Positions 11,749 to 25,960 of a stretch of DNA of 64,000 bases are shown here, in pieces. Origin of the DNA: Rikenellaceae bacterium (lineage in GTDB: Bacteria; Bacteroidota; Bacteroidia; Bacteroidales; Rikenellaceae). The stretch's first letter is position 1. Every line of letters starts with the position of its first letter. The DNA lies in assembly GCA_015059955.1 (NCBI GenBank), contig SUZK01000002.1, positions 62,001 through 126,000 of the forward strand, in the 5' to 3' direction. The position numbers and the translations under genes were made by a program. The notes beneath the pieces were generated by a model that was not told the origin of the DNA, did not search any database, and saw only the letters and a program-made list of their open reading frames with translations.

Positions 11749-13506
11749 ATGTACAGATCACACACATGCGGTGAACTCCGCATTGAGAATGTCGGCCAAA
11801 GCGTGACACTCGCAGGCTGGGTGCAGAAGGTTCGTAACCTTGGCGCCATGACATTTATCGACCTTCGCGACCGCTATGGCATCACGCAGATTGTTGTCGA
11901 GGAGCACTCGCCAGAGGCTGCGCGTGCTGCTGCTCAGCAGGTAGGTCGTGAGTTTGTTTTGCAGGTTACTGGTAAGGTTATCGAGCGCGAGTCGAAGAAC
12001 GCGAAGATTGCCACTGGCGATATCGAGATTTCGGCTACCGAGATAAATATTCTCAACCGCGCCGTGACGCCTCCATTCACCATCGAGGAGGAGTCGGATG
12101 GTGGTGACGACCTTCGTATGAAGTATCGCTACCTCGACTTGCGCCGCCCACCATTGCAGCGCGCAATGATTCTTCGTCACCGCATGGCGCAGGCCGTGCG
12201 TCAGTTCCTCGATAAGGAGGGCTTCCTCGAGATTGAGACCCCATACCTTATCAAGTCAACGCCCGAGGGTGCGCGCGACTTTATCGTGCCATCACGCATG
12301 AACCCTAACCAGTTCTACGCCTTGCCACAGTCGCCACAGACCCTCAAGCAGCTGCTTATGGTTGCGGGCTATGATCGCTACTTCCAGATTGTACGTTGCT
12401 TCCGCGATGAGGACCTTCGTGCCGACCGTCAGCCCGAGTTCACACAGATCGACTGCGAGATGTCGTTCGTCGAGCAGGAGGATGTATTGGAGATCTTCGA
12501 GCGCTGGGCACGCTATATGTTTAAGGAGGTTATGGACATCGAGTTTGCAGAGCCATTCCAGCGTATGCCTTGGATTGAGGCTATGGAGAAGTATGGCTCG
12601 GATAAGCCAGACTTGCGTTTTGGCATGACCTTCGCCGATGTCACCGACCTTGCACACGGCCACAATTTCGTAGTCTTCGACTCGGCAGATTATGTCGTGG
12701 GCTTCGCTGCTGAGGGCTGCGCATCATATACACGTAAGCAGATTGACGAGCTCACCGAGTTCGTTAAGCGTCCACAGGTGGGTGCTAAGGGCCTCGTATG
12801 GATTCGTGTTGATGCTGAGGGTGGCGTCAAGTCATCTATCGATAAGTTCTTCACCCCTGAGGAGGTCAAGGCTATCGCTGAGCGCGTTGGCGCTGAGGCT
12901 GGCGACATGGTCTTCATCCTCTGCGGCGAGAAGTTCAAGACCCTCACACAGCTATGTACCTTGCGTCTTGAGGTTGCCGAGCGTCTCGGCTTGCGTGATC
13001 CTAAGAAGTTCGCTCCATTGTGGGTTGTCGACTTCCCAATGTTCGAGTGGGATGAGGAGACACAGCGCTTCTACGCTATGCACCACCCCTTCACCTCGCC
13101 AAAGCCCGAGGATGCTAAGTACTTCGACACAGGCGAGCTCGGTAAGATGCGTGCCAACGCCTACGACTTCGTATGTAACGGCACCGAGATTGGCGGTGGC
13201 TCTATCCGTATCCACGACGCCGAGCTTCAGGCTAAGGTCTTCAACGCCCTCGGCTTCACCCCTGAGGCTGCTGAGGAGCAGTTTGGCTTCCTCATGAACG
13301 CCTTTAAGTATGGTGCACCTCCACACGGCGGCTTGGCATTCGGCTTCGACCGTCTCTGCTCGTTGTTTGGTGGCTCCGACTCTATCCGCGACTATATCGC
13401 CTTCCCAAAGAACAACGCCGGTCGTGATGTGATGCTCGATGGACCATCGCCCGTGGCACAGGCGCAGTTGGATGAGTTGTATCTTTCGCTCGTCACCCCC
13501 GAGTAA
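11749..13506 (+). CDS. aspS: Aspartyl-tRNA synthetase
   Basis: 585 aa, class II motifs, [22 protein letters not shown]. Confidence 0.98.
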
Positions 13507-13510
13507 TTTC

Positions 13511-13800
13511 GCGAGATAAGGCAGACATCTACTGCCGCTAACAAAAAATCCCGACAATGAGCAGTACGCCAAGTACAGCCCATCGTCGGGATTTTTGCCG
13601 AGCGTTGTATCTGCAGCCTTCTCTCGCGAAATCAAGTTTGTTGTGATAAGCCGCAATCTGCCCCACATCTCGCAGCTTATCACAACAAATTTTTTTGATT
13701 TTAACGGAACATGTTTGGCCTATCGCAATAAGAAATCCCGAAGGATAGTACCGACGTACAGCCTTCGGGATTTAGTTTGGAATGAGCTAAAGATGCCCGT
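13511..13800. repeat. Composite hairpin repeat array A
   Basis: Four hairpins: 13520-13536, 13544-13596, 13637-13689, 13733-13773; long similarity to 25490-25800. Confidence 0.85.
13637..13696 (+). terminator. Strong inverted repeat with T tract downstream of aspS
   Basis: 15-bp perfect stem TTTGTTGTGATAAGC/GCTTATCACAACAAA followed by a T run. Confidence 0.75.
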
Positions 13801-13813
13801 TATATATCGAAAA

Positions 13814-14365
13814 TTACTTGAAGTAGCGGTTATACAAACCCTCAAATCCCTTACCGTGGCGAGCCTCATCCTTTGCCATCTCGTGTACGGTGTCGTGGAT
13901 AGCGTCGTAGTTGTTCTGCTTTGCGAGGGCTGCGATACGCATCTTGTCTGCGCAAGCGCCGCTCTCAGCATTCATGCGCTTCTCAAGGTTGGTCTTTGTA
14001 TCCCATACGCAGTCGCCAAGAAGCTCGGCAAACTTCGATGCGTGCTCTGCCTCCTCGAAAGCGTAGCGCTTAAAGGCCTCGGCAATCTCAGGATAACCCT
14101 CACGGTCTGCCTGGCGGCTCATTGCAAGGTACATACCTACCTCGGTGCACTCGCCCATGAAGTGGTTGTTAAGGCCCTCGAGGATCTCGGCGTTGTCAAC
14201 CTTACCATCACCAATCTTGTGCTCTGTGACGAACTCAAGAGCTGCGTTCTCCTCCTTCATCTCGTTGAACTTATCCTTGCTTACCTTGCACAATGGGCAC
14301 TGCTCTGGAGCCTCGTTACCCTCGTGAATATATCCGCATACTGAACAGATGAACTTCTTTGCCAT
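13814..14365 (-). CDS. Rubredoxin-rubrerythrin fusion
   Basis: N-terminal [14 protein letters not shown] rubredoxin domain, ferritin-like EEAEHA and DEARHG motifs. Confidence 0.92.
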
Positions 14366-15487: not shown

Positions 15488-15839
15488 CGGCATATGTGCT
15501 CTATCGCTGCCACCATGTGTGGGGGAGGAAAGTCCGAGCAACGCAGAGCGCCACGCAAGTTAACGGCTTGATACTCGTGAGGGTATAGTAGCGTAGAAGA
15601 AAATAACCGCCTCGCAAGAGGTAAGGGTGAGAAGGCGGGGTAAGAGCCCACCGCGAGGGTAGCAATACTCCTCGGTCCGTACGTCTCGTGGGTTGCAAGA
15701 CCATGTATACCGACAATTAAGGGTTGCTCGTCCAATGTCGGGGGGTAGGTTGCTGGAGGCGGCAAGTGATTGTCGTCGTAGATAAATGATAGGGGCGTCG
15801 CGCAAGTGACGAACAGAACTCGGCTTATAACGTATGCCA
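15488..15839 (+). ncRNA. rnpB: RNase P RNA
   Basis: GAGGAAAGTCCGAGC near the 5' end and GACGAACAGAACTCGGCTTAT near the 3' end; P1 GGCATA/TATGCC closes the molecule. Confidence 0.95.
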
Positions 15840-15844
15840 AACAC

Positions 15845-20928: not shown

Positions 20929-21236
20929 TGCGGCCGCAAAAGTATAAATTTTATTTAAAATAACCAAATTTCAATGGGTTATCAACTTACATTGTTTTAG
21001 CTATTGGCAAAACTGACTATTTGGAAGTGACCATTCACTCCGCAAAACCGACCATTCGCGCCATTAAAATCACCATTTATTAAAAAAAATTAAAATGATT
21101 TCGCCTTATTAAATATTTGTATTACCTTTGCACACTGACAAATTATTCTCTCTTTTGGCCCAAATGGTTAGAGTAGAGGGCTCTCTCCTTTGGAGAAAGA
21201 GATATGAGAAGAAATTTTTGTAATAAAAAAGAGTAT

Positions 21237-24200
21237 ATGAGTAATGTTAATTTGACTCCCGATTACCTATTTGAGGTTAGCTGGGAGGTGTGCAACAAGG
21301 TGGGTGGCATACATACTGTCATCGCCTCGAAAGCACCAACAGTAATGCAGCAGTTGGGCGATAAGTATATCACTATCGGTCCCGATTTCTCGCAGGATGC
21401 TGCCAACCCCGAGTTTAAGGAGGATACCACACTTCTTGCGGCTTTGCGTGAGACACTCTACGCTAAGGGTGTTCGTGTGCGTGTTGGTCGCTGGACGATC
21501 GATGGTAGCCCCATCGCCATACTTATCGACTTTAAGTCGTTCTTCAACCAGAAGGATGAGATTCTCAAGCAGTTGTGGGACTCATACCACGTAGACTCGT
21601 TGTCGGGTCAGTGGGACTATGTTGAGCCAGTATTGTTTGGCCACGCAGCAGGCGTTGTCATCGCAGCTTTCACACAGTGCGTAGCAACTCCAGCCGCTAA
21701 GGTTGTCGCTCACTTCCACGAGTGGATGGCAGCAGCAGGCTCGCTCTACTTGCGCGACAATGCACCATACGTAGCCACCGTATTCACTACCCACGCTACG
21801 GTTATGGGCCGCTGTATTGCTGGCAACCGCCTACCTCTCTACAACGACCTTCACAAGTTCAACGCCGATGAGCTCGCTCGTCAGTTCAACGTGATGGCTA
21901 AGCACTCGTTGGAGAAGTCGGCAGCTACCTACGCTGATGCCTTCCTCACCGTGAGTGACATTACGGCTAACGAGTGTAAGTACTTGCTTGGTCGTGAGGT
22001 GACACGTATCACCCCGAACGGCTTTGAGAATGGCTTTGTGCCCGCTGCGGAGCGTCTTAGCGAGGTGCGTGCAGCATCACGTAAGCGTATCATCGACGTG
22101 GCACGCGCTACTTGGGGCTATGACTTCGCGGGTGAGCCACTTATTGTTGCTACCAGCGGCCGCTACGAGTATCGCAATAAGGGTATCGACGTATTCTTGG
22201 AGTCGATGAAGCAGCTCGCATCGAGCAACATCGACCGCGATGTCATCGCTGTTGTTGCTGTTCCTGCTGCTACCGTAGGTGCTCGTATCGACCTCGAGCA
22301 GCACCTCGAGAACAACGCATCGCCTATCGACCCATCGCAGAAGCGCTACCTTACACACTATCTTGAGTCTGAGGCATGGGATCAGGTATGCCGCTCTGTT
22401 GAGGGCAGCATCCTCTCTACTTCGGCATCGCGTGTTAAGGTTCTCTTCGTGCCTACATACCTCAATGGCAACGATGGCATCTTCAACATGCCATACTACG
22501 ATCTTCTTGCAGGTGTTGACCTCACCGTCTTCGCATCATACTACGAGCCATGGGGCTACACTCCACTTGAGTCGGTAGCATATGGCGTTCCTACCGTTAC
22601 CACCACTCTTGCTGGCTTCGGTATGTGGATTGCAAAGCACGTAGACCACGAGGGCGTAGATATCGTACGTCGCGACGACTATAACGAGCGCGAGGTTGTA
22701 TTGCAGATTACCGACGTTGTACGTAAGTATATAGATATGAATGCCGAGAAGTACGAGGCTGCTCGTCGCTCAGCACAGGAGATGTCATCAACAGCGCTAT
22801 GGAAGAAGCTCTTTAAGGAGTATCAGGTGGCCTATGAGGAGGCTCTCGACAACTCAATTTCGCGTACCAACCGAGTGCTTATCGATGGTGGTAGCCGTGG
22901 CGAGCAGATTAACTTCGTGCGCCAGCAGCTCACCTCGAACCGTCCTACATGGCACCGTTTGATGGTCGAGAAGGGTATTCCAGAGCGTTTGAAGCCACTT
23001 GAGGAGCTATCACGCAACTTGTGGTGGTGCTGGACGGCCTCTGCTCGCGACCTCTTTGAGTCTATCGACGAGGCGTTGTGGGTAAAGGTTGACCGTAACC
23101 CTATCGTGTTGCTCGATAAGCTATCGTCAGCACGTTGCGAGGAGCTTTGCGCCGATAAGGACTTCCTCAAGCGCATGGATGCAGTATATAAGGAGTTCAC
23201 CGAGTATATGGCTGAGAAGCCATCACCCGAGCACGCTAAGGTGGCATACTTCTCTATGGAGTATGGTCTGCACTCGTCGTTGAAGATATACTCTGGTGGT
23301 CTTGGTATCCTCGCTGGTGACTACCTCAAGGAGGCATCAGATAGAAACGTTCCTATGGTAGCCGTAGGTCTCTTGTACCGCTACGGTTACTTCACTCAGC
23401 GTCTCTCGGCGCAGGGTGCTCAGGAGGCTACATACGAGGCACAGAACTTCTATAAGCTCCCTATCTCGCCCGTGCGTGACGAGTTCGGCAACTGGGTGAC
23501 TACACAGGTGGCAATGCCTGGTCGTACCTTGTCGGCACGCGTTTGGAAGTGCCAGGTGGGCCGTACCGACCTCTTCTTGTTGGATGCCGACTATGAGGCA
23601 AACCTCGAGGAGGACCGTCAGGTGACCTACTACCTCTATGGTGGTGACTGGGAGAACCGCCTCAAGCAGGAGATTTTGTTGGGTGTCGGTGGTATCCGTG
23701 CTCTCGTGAAGATGGGCATCAAGCAGGAGGTATACCACTGCAACGAGGGTCACGCAGCCTTCATCGGCATCGAGCGTATCCGCAACCTCATCGCTAAGAA
23801 GCACTTGTCGTTCTCTGAGGCTATGGAGGTTATCCGCTCGTCGTCGTTGTTCACAACACATACCCCTGTGCCAGCAGGTCACGATGCCTTCCCAGAGTCG
23901 ATGTTGCGTCAGTATATGTCGCACTACCCCGATGTCTTGGGTATCACCTGGGATCAGTTCATCAACCTCGGTAAGACCAACCCTAACGACCCTAACGAGA
24001 AGTTCTCGATGTCGGTACTCGCATGTAACCTCTCACAGGAGGTAAACGGCGTATCGTGGTTGCACGGCGAGGTATCGAAGGATATCCTTGGCAACATGTG
24101 GCCAGGCTACTTCAAGAATGAGTTGCACATCGGCTACGTAACAAACGGTGTTCACTTCCCAACATGGGTAGCATCTAACCTCCGTCGCTTGTACTCTAAG

Positions 24201-25481
24201 TACTTCGGTGACGCCTTCTCGAGTCATACATATAATATCCCTGAGTGGCAGAACGTACATAAGATTGACGATAAGGAGCTTTGGGGCGAGCGCATGATGC
24301 TCAAGGAGCGTCTTATCAAGACTATCCGCAAGCGCTTCAGCGATCCTACACAGGTACGCTTGCAGTCGCCACGCCAGATGGTACAGGTTACCGAGAGCAT
24401 TCGTCCTGATGTTCTTACTATCGGTTTTGCTCGTCGCTTTGCCACCTATAAGCGTGCCTACTTGCTCTTCACCAACTTGGAGCGTCTTTCGGCCCTTGTA
24501 AATAATAAGGAGCGCCCCGTGCAGTTCATCTTCGCAGGTAAGGCACACCCTAACGATAAGCCAGGTCAGGACCTTATCAAGCGCATCGTTGAGGTATCGG
24601 CAATGCCAGAGTTCGTGGGTAAGATTGTCTTCTTGCAGAACTACGATATGGAGCTTGCACGCCGCATGGTTCAGGGTGTCGACGTATGGCTCAACACGCC
24701 TACCCGTCCTTTGGAGGCTTCGGGTACTTCGGGCGAGAAGTGTGTTATGAATGGTGTTATGCAGTTCTCAGTCCTCGACGGCTGGTGGGTTGAGGGCTAT
24801 AAGGAGGGTGCTGGCTGGATGCTTCCTATGGAGCGCACCTATGCCGACCAGCGCTTCCAGGATGAGCTCGACGCCGAGATGATATATAACACTATCGAGG
24901 AGCAGATCGTACCATTGTACTACGACCGTGCCGAGGATGGCGTACCTCACCGCTGGGTAAATGCTGTTAAGAAGTGCGTGGCAGATATTGCGTCGAACTT
25001 CACCACTAACCGCATGCTTATCGACTACGAGGAGCGCTTCTATAATAAGCTCGCCGAGCGCAAGGCACTTATGCTCGATAACAACTATATGATGGCTCGT
25101 CAGATTGCTGCATGGAAGCGTAAGGTGTCGGCTGCGTGGGATAACATCTCTATCTTGGATGTTCAGCGTGCCGAGATCGACAGCGAGGCAATCTACGTGG
25201 GTAAGAAGTACCACTTCCAGCTCACCCTCGACCTTGCGGGTCTCAACCCTGAGGATATCGGCGCCGAGCTTGTTGTGGCTACGCAGATTGAGGCCGGCCA
25301 GGCAGCCAATGTTGTTGAGACACGCCGTCTCAGTGTCGTTGCTACGGAGAGTAATACCGTTACGCTCGCTCTTGACTACTCGCCAGAGCATACTGGTATG
25401 TTCGATGTAGCGTTGCGTATCTTCCCTGTGAACGATAAGCTTGAGCATCGTATGGATTTTGCGCTTGTTAAGTGGGCGTAA
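21237..25481 (+). CDS. Fusion: GT3-like glycogen synthase plus GT35 alpha-glucan phosphorylase
   Basis: N-term LFEVSWEVCNKVGGIHTVIASKA; C-term EELSRNLWWCW...AYFSMEYGLHSSLKIYSGGLGILAGDYLKEASD and PTRPLEASGTSGEKCVMNG. Confidence 0.9.
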   Translation: MSNVNLTPDYLFEVSWEVCNKVGGIHTVIASKAPTVMQQLGDKYITIGPDFSQDAANPEFKEDTTLLAALRETLYAKGVRVRVGRWTIDGSPIAILIDFKSFFNQKDEILKQLWDSYHVDSLSGQWDYVEPVLFGHAAGVVIAAFTQCVATPAAKVVAHFHEWMAAAGSLYLRDNAPYVATVFTTHATVMGRCIAGNRLPLYNDLHKFNADELARQFNVMAKHSLEKSAATYADAFLTVSDITANECKYLLGREVTRITPNGFENGFVPAAERLSEVRAASRKRIIDVARATWGYDFAGEPLIVATSGRYEYRNKGIDVFLESMKQLASSNIDRDVIAVVAVPAATVGARIDLEQHLENNASPIDPSQKRYLTHYLESEAWDQVCRSVEGSILSTSASRVKVLFVPTYLNGNDGIFNMPYYDLLAGVDLTVFASYYEPWGYTPLESVAYGVPTVTTTLAGFGMWIAKHVDHEGVDIVRRDDYNEREVVLQITDVVRKYIDMNAEKYEAARRSAQEMSSTALWKKLFKEYQVAYEEALDNSISRTNRVLIDGGSRGEQINFVRQQLTSNRPTWHRLMVEKGIPERLKPLEELSRNLWWCWTASARDLFESIDEALWVKVDRNPIVLLDKLSSARCEELCADKDFLKRMDAVYKEFTEYMAEKPSPEHAKVAYFSMEYGLHSSLKIYSGGLGILAGDYLKEASDRNVPMVAVGLLYRYGYFTQRLSAQGAQEATYEAQNFYKLPISPVRDEFGNWVTTQVAMPGRTLSARVWKCQVGRTDLFLLDADYEANLEEDRQVTYYLYGGDWENRLKQEILLGVGGIRALVKMGIKQEVYHCNEGHAAFIGIERIRNLIAKKHLSFSEAMEVIRSSSLFTTHTPVPAGHDAFPESMLRQYMSHYPDVLGITWDQFINLGKTNPNDPNEKFSMSVLACNLSQEVNGVSWLHGEVSKDILGNMWPGYFKNELHIGYVTNGVHFPTWVASNLRRLYSKYFGDAFSSHTYNIPEWQNVHKIDDKELWGERMMLKERLIKTIRKRFSDPTQVRLQSPRQMVQVTESIRPDVLTIGFARRFATYKRAYLLFTNLERLSALVNNKERPVQFIFAGKAHPNDKPGQDLIKRIVEVSAMPEFVGKIVFLQNYDMELARRMVQGVDVWLNTPTRPLEASGTSGEKCVMNGVMQFSVLDGWWVEGYKEGAGWMLPMERTYADQRFQDELDAEMIYNTIEEQIVPLYYDRAEDGVPHRWVNAVKKCVADIASNFTTNRMLIDYEERFYNKLAERKALMLDNNYMMARQIAAWKRKVSAAWDNISILDVQRAEIDSEAIYVGKKYHFQLTLDLAGLNPEDIGAELVVATQIEAGQAANVVETRRLSVVATESNTVTLALDYSPEHTGMFDVALRIFPVNDKLEHRMDFALVKWA

Positions 25482-25489
25482 TTTCCGAT

Positions 25490-25800
25490 TTTATAGGGCA
25501 TCTTTAGCCCATCCCAAACAAAATCCCGAAGGCTGTACGCTGAGTACTATCCTTCGGGATTTCTTATTGCGATAGACTAAATCTGCACCTCTAAAATCAG
25601 AAATTAATTTTGCTGATAAGGCAGACATCTACTGCCGCATACAAGCCGTCCCGACAATGAGCAGTACGCCAAGTACAGCCCATCGTACAGCCTTCTATCA
25701 CGAAATCCAGAGTGTTGCGATATGTGGGCATCTTTAGCCCATCCCCAAAAGTAGACTACCGCAGGCTGTGCTTCGTGTACTATCCTGCGGTAGTCTCTTT
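25490..25800. repeat. Composite hairpin repeat array B
   Basis: Hairpins 25496-25510, 25521-25562, 25620-25636, 25753-25796; shares 37 nt exactly with array A. Confidence 0.85.
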
Positions 25801-25811
25801 TTTTATGCGCT

Positions 25812-25900
25812 CGGCTAAGGGCCCTTGCCCGCCCTCTTAAGGAGCTATGCTCCGCCCTACTAAGCAAGCTTTGCTTGCGCCCTCTAAGCGTAGCACCCCC
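25812..25900. repeat. Array of short palindromes separated by CGCCCTCTAAG-like spacers
   Basis: GGAGCtatGCTCC, CAAGCtttGCTTG and AAGGGCCCTT with spacers CGCCCTCTTAAG, CGCCCTACTAAG, CGCCCTCTAAG. Confidence 0.75.
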
Positions 25901-25960
25901 CAAATATCGCGGGTAGGAAAAAGTCTACCCGCGTCACCGGGGGGGGTAGGGGGATAAAAA

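Follow-up and report, generated by a model that had tools for sequence, protein, structure and literature searches.

Between aspS and the rubrerythrin gene that converges on it, the DNA is occupied by members of a polar family of palindromic repeats that are anchored at stop codons, fold in a strand-specific manner, and have their contents exchanged at fixed sites. The long hairpin of these units is conserved and is maintained through compensatory changes. The best reading of the family is that its form resembles that of ERIC and MITE elements and its strand-specific folding that of attC sites. By "window" we mean the whole 64,000-nucleotide stretch of DNA analyzed.

Arrays A and B in the window

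Two complete units and one remnant fill the aspS/rubrerythrin gap (array A), and three units make up array B (25480-25811). The features are as follows.

11749-13506, + strand: aspS, aspartyl-tRNA synthetase class II (tRNA-synt_2, GAD, OB fold); host gene of A1
13505-13633, + strand: unit A1, E1 type, a full hairpin element with strong relatives elsewhere in the genome
13634-13692, no strand: remnant A2, a short near-perfect palindrome with arms 13634-13654 and 13672-13692
about 13690-13815, - strand: unit A3, E2 type, a complete element in the sense orientation of the rubrerythrin gene
13814-14365, - strand: rubrerythrin gene, convergent to aspS; host gene of A3
21204-25481: gene with a glycogen synthase/phosphorylase domain; host gene of B1
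25480-25605, + strand: unit B1, E2 type, left end overlapping the TAA stop at 25479-25481
25606-25708, + strand: unit B2, E1 type, internally deleted, head-to-tail with B1
25711-25811, + strand: unit B3, E2 type, missing its right arm

A1 starts within the aspS stop codon, sharing its first bases with the end of that TAA (13504-13506), and the junction reads GAG TAA TTTCGCGAG; the arms of this unit are TTTCGCGAGATAAGG and CCTTCTCTCGCGAAA. The left end of A3 likewise overlaps the rubrerythrin stop codon (TTA on the + strand, 13814-13816). Remnant A2 holds the common left arm TTTGTTGTGATAAG together with an inverted copy of it, and is probably a unit that has suffered an internal deletion. The predicted fold of the E1 unit (13504-13633) has an energy of -61.2 kcal/mol on the + strand (z = -10.3, reached in 0 of 200 shuffles) and -74.9 kcal/mol on the - strand (z = -11.0), and that of the E2 unit (13692-13815) an energy of -40.1 kcal/mol on the - strand (z = -5.9) and -48.4 kcal/mol on the + strand (z = -7.7).

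A first-pass annotation had described array A as four nested hairpins. All the hairpins that it named are present, with folds far outside the shuffled controls; the nested arrangement gives way to an E1 unit, a palindromic remnant, and an E2 unit on the opposite strand. Its first two hairpins are inner parts of the E1 unit, whose outer 17-bp arm (13506-13522/13616-13632) was overlooked, and its "15-bp perfect stem" is the remnant. That description noted neither the polarity nor the anchoring at stop codons nor the strand-specific folding. The recurrence of modules that it reported at 25.5 kb is real and corresponds to array B.

Several further features of these regions were observed. Each of the two convergent genes at array A has its own unit; among 28 further unit-bearing convergent gaps, only one likewise showed both orientations. 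Short GC-rich hairpins, GGAGCTATGCTCCGCCC and others like it, form a run 3' of array B (25812-25950); the 17-mer has 11 copies in 1.18 Mb (control, 0), and similar runs are also found near the arrays of a sister species. The window also encodes a class A RNase P RNA (15488-15843, + strand; RF00010, 213.6 bits).

A dispersed family with common arms and a conserved hairpin

The source genome (2.08 Mb in 14 contigs, 98.8% complete) was searched for relatives of the array A units, with unit counts and gap statistics taken from 1.18 Mb of its sequence. BLAST with array A returned about 120 pieces, and the apical pattern CTGTAC(N)GTACTAT matched 34 times (reversed control, 0). In the 1.18 Mb, nhmmer gave 99 hits, of which 92 exceeded 60 bp in length, with units covering 11.1 kb. 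The first-pass suggestion of a dispersed element is thus borne out by about 92 units in this genome and by the wider occurrence described below; further copies exist, and no Rfam family scored over its gathering cut-off at the array, where the only matches were weak, sub-threshold ones to eukaryotic miRNAs.

Units are 126-132 bp long (roughly 127 bp), end in AATTTG..CAAATT, and are joined head-to-tail, frequently as CAAATT-AATTTG. The same arms, AATTTGTTGTGATAAG ... CTTCTGACAACAAATT, enclose four or more interior families (E1 to E4), which also have an apical xTAC-N-GTAx motif in common; the arms read GTTGTGA ... TNACAAC. Arm positions 6-10 and 15-20 covary, positions 11 and 13 stay unpaired, and pairing extends exactly two bases past TTTG/CAAA before falling to chance level. 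Several positions of the E2 core show all four Watson-Crick pairs, with 82-97% paired versus 35-51% after shuffling. An alignment of E3 units in complementary-strand orientation has 96.8% of cells paired and 28 pairs changed on both sides; its covariation score is 0.439, versus 0.157 for shuffled and at most 0.121 for slid controls, where shuffling does not remove the relatedness of the copies and sliding keeps it. G-U pairs in this alignment are invariant at columns 27-102 and 51-80 and nearly invariant at 29-100. Hairpins are strong on both strands, and the E1 and E2 cores contain A and T tracts; a GC-rich hairpin followed by a T tract is present in these cores and weak in those of E3 and E4.

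Two additional sequence features accompany some units. A tail, GGGGTTGCGGTGCTAATTAA(T/C)GTTGCG, stands to the right of the last unit in several arrays (e.g., source genome C4:35551 and C10:168115) and often closes again with the right arm CTTCTGACAACAAATT; this tail may represent a related repeat of shorter length, or else the fixed distal terminus of arrays. Some E1 units form a subgroup with longer conserved flanks, TCGTTC on the left and AGCTCGCCCTCAAAATGCTCATTTAC..GTAAACTCCGC on the right (C4:35845, 90896, 188385, 204045, and 251270; C9:4998; C13:119510), and lie 35-55 nt past the stop codon where a gene could be assigned, as if a composite E1-E4 element were moving as one.

Units begin at native stop codons and point one way

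Among 70 units from other Alistipes genomes, the sense reading frame (at least 90 codons, terminating no more than 60 nt from the unit end) ended at the left end in 62 and at the right end in 6, and in 34 of the 70 it ended exactly at TA(A/G)-TTTG. Exact overlap with the stop codon was seen for 25 of 46 gene-proximal units in the source genome, where stops make up 473 of the 3883 (12%) sense TAA trinucleotides in the gaps. Orientation was constrained as well: tandem gaps held 34 sense and 3 antisense units, and 27 of 28 convergent gaps with units contained a single orientation only.

Units were present in 28 of 116 gaps between convergent genes, in 25 of 558 between tandem genes, and in 2 of 118 between divergent ones. 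The first-pass annotation had asked whether copies sit mainly in convergent gaps, which is partly correct.

The stop codon at the units is native. Element-free orthologous proteins end at the same residue, and for the source genome C-terminal length was the same in 31 of 38 orthologs and differed by no more than one residue in 36 of the 38. Element-free orthologs often terminate in TAG versus TAA in the carrier, as does aspS of one relative (G004).

The complement of the coding strand is the better folder

As RNA, the complement of the neighboring gene's coding strand was the better folder in 164 of 171 units, comprising 69 of 72 in the source genome and 95 of 99 in other genomes; as DNA, the corresponding figures were 69 of 72 and 98 of 99. 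A.C mismatches in the coding strand, which are G.U in the other strand, outnumber G.T mismatches in both cells (105 versus 39) and distinct contexts (71 versus 37). The bias is equal whether the gap is tandem or convergent and whether a unit comes first or later, and is thus a property of the element, not of its setting. As an alternative reading, selection may favor a C-rich, less folded coding-sense RNA (e.g., for Rho). Mutational strand skew was also considered as a source of the bias and was rejected, as element-free 3' regions lack an A+C skew.

Sites persist while interiors are exchanged

In the sister species (G011), matchable element positions recur at the same stops as in the source genome (G000), and interiors differ at about half of the matched sites. 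The swaps include E4 versus E3, E4 versus E1, and E3 versus E1, as well as E1 versus E2 at aspS; one interior variant has four copies in the sister species and none in the data from the source genome. Across more distant species 15 of 38 sites are shared, whereas the background frequency of genes with a unit is 46 of 867 (about 5%). Sites therefore persist while their contents turn over. Unlike in an ordinary transposon, the sequence changes more readily than the position, and the swapping could thus be due to gene conversion or repair with no transposition involved.

At one locus of the sister species (L198; compare G000 C10:296548), an E2 unit common to the two species is separated from the stop codon by an extra E1 unit, indicating that new units can arrive stop-proximally. 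The junction at this one locus is compatible with a TA duplication, and TA..TA flanks are found in part of the main class of units and are absent from the other classes. No clean empty site had flanks close enough for a target duplication to be read, G004 and other relatives being too diverged downstream.

Distribution and search for a mover

The family occurs in only part of the species of a single genus, Alistipes, and was found convincingly in no other. The pattern of unit ends occurred in 45 of 151 sampled Alistipes genomes, with up to 62 copies each and controls near zero; outside the genus, 294 genomes of the order yielded one match, whose sequence is unlike the element. Public records that contain the element bear only the titles Alistipes sp. 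or Rikenellaceae, and are mostly metagenome-assembled genomes from ruminant and deer gut. Viral contigs gave no match to the element. The open literature, a scope outside which most subscription papers fall, yielded no description of the family in Alistipes.

We searched for candidate enzymes in draft, incomplete genomes, the source genome being 98.8% complete. Transposases of the Y1 type (IS200-type, RAYT) were found in 0 of 20 element-bearing genomes, including the source genome, with control genomes positive. No DDE_3 transposase (IS630-type, PF13358) was found in 40 genomes, and in the same number no integron integrase exceeded the TIGR02249 cut-off, below which only generic tyrosine recombinases appeared. 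Reverse transcriptases were set aside, being found in 6 of 20 element-positive and 10 of 20 other genomes and so not tracking the element.

Proposed origin and alternatives

We see an even chance that the array A units belong to a non-autonomous, polar, mobile dispersed palindrome of ruminant-gut Alistipes that has become resident as a gene 3' boundary. The folded complementary strand would be the form recognized during spread, and new copies would be inserted at stop-codon sites, or interiors copied into them, by either (i) a trans-acting enzyme or (ii) a hairpin-targeted repair process. Resident copies might then mark where the gene ends on its 3' side, as a 3'-end hairpin or terminator, a role that would make the site tolerable or useful. 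More tentatively, the family may be a mobile hairpin addressed to stop codons, in which a putative enzyme reads the folded complementary strand and writes units or interiors in one polarity into gene 3' ends.

A rather unlikely alternative is that the units are selected 3'-end elements, either terminators or mRNA-stabilizing hairpins, and that copying between sites is ordinary gene conversion with no dedicated mobility. Consistent with this, units lie nearly always downstream of genes, as the convergent and divergent gaps illustrate, both strands form strong hairpins, the E1 and E2 cores having A and T tracts, and the sites recur across species while interiors are swapped at them. The coding-sense strand that the mRNA would carry is, however, the one that folds less well as RNA in 164 of 171 units, and it has the excess of A.C over G.T mismatches; moreover, the E3 and E4 cores have no clear T tract, and the family is restricted to some species of one genus.

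We doubt that the functional product is an antisense RNA, whose hairpin would stop transcripts arriving from downstream, or permit their trimming at the stop codon, and so protect the gene from antisense overlap. The fold of the complementary strand with its invariant G-U pairs, the exact abutment of units on the stop, and the enrichment in convergent gaps all agree with such a role; against it, the strand bias is as strong in tandem gaps, where these transcripts are unexpected, and the model depends on a putative antisense promoter.

It is improbable that the units are attC-like sites, at which a tyrosine recombinase would act on the complementary strand, folded up as single-stranded DNA, and leave polar head-to-tail arrays behind genes. 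Bottom-strand preference, conservation of structure above sequence, and polarity behind genes do recall attC and VCR sites, but no integron integrase was found over the curated cut-off in 40 genomes, the arms GTTGTGA ... TNACAAC are the reverse of the attC order, and the genes that carry units are dispersed housekeeping genes instead of cassettes. Lastly, the first-pass proposal of REP/BIME repeats spread by a RAYT, although these are also multicopy intergenic palindromes, is hardly credible and fails on the lack, in the genomes searched, of Y1, IS630-type DDE, and integron integrase enzymes, the absence of a GTAG or CGTC tag, and a unit length of about 127 bp versus 20-40 bp.

Comparison with known repeats and significance

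To our knowledge the units bear no sequence likeness to ERIC. In enterobacteria, ERIC (also IRU or RU-1) is an imperfect palindrome of about 127 bp that is intergenic and dispersed, has no known transposase, and has been proposed to affect mRNA in an orientation-dependent manner (PMC2229807). The Alistipes units are likewise intergenic, multicopy imperfect palindromes of about 127 bp; unlike in ERIC, nearly all first units start at the stop codon with one polarity, the arms are common to several interior families, and one strand folds better. RUP and other IS630-type MITEs resemble the units in length (about 100-150 bp), inverted ends, and, for part of the main class, a terminal TA, but the 40 genomes hold no DDE_3 transposase, and the ends of the units vary among copies yet remain paired (PMC2229807). 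A MITE-like label, also offered in the first-pass annotation, is fair for form, while the partner transposase was not found in those genomes. YPAL/RU-2 is a similarly long hairpin element with targets near dyad symmetry; in contrast to the Alistipes units it lacks TA ends and makes duplications of 3-26 bp, and stop-codon anchoring is not described for it (PMC2229807).

The core boxes of attC read RYYYAAC ... GTTRRRY, and VCRs are similar in length to the Alistipes units. Shared with attC/VCR sites are a structure more conserved than the sequence, folding of the bottom strand of gene-associated sites, and head-to-tail polarity behind genes; the differences are the opposite order of the core boxes and the lack of gene cassettes and of an integron integrase over the cut-off (PMC2727003). 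REP/BIME and the GTAG/CGTC repeats with RAYTs are likewise high-copy intergenic palindromes, the Alistipes units having neither RAYT nor tag and being about four times longer (PMC3733652). Overall, the family works like ERIC-type MITEs and recalls attC, but defining tests of REP/RAYT systems, attC sites, and IS630-type MITEs gave negative results.

If confirmed, the family would be a bacterial repeat positioned nearly to the base by the end of translation, and would display an attC-like strand-specific structure in the absence of an integron. We know of no identified mover of ERIC-type repeats, and the Alistipes family would offer a tractable route to the enzyme behind orphan palindromic repeats. 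It would also let one ask whether gene 3' ends, genome-wide, come from mobile hairpins.
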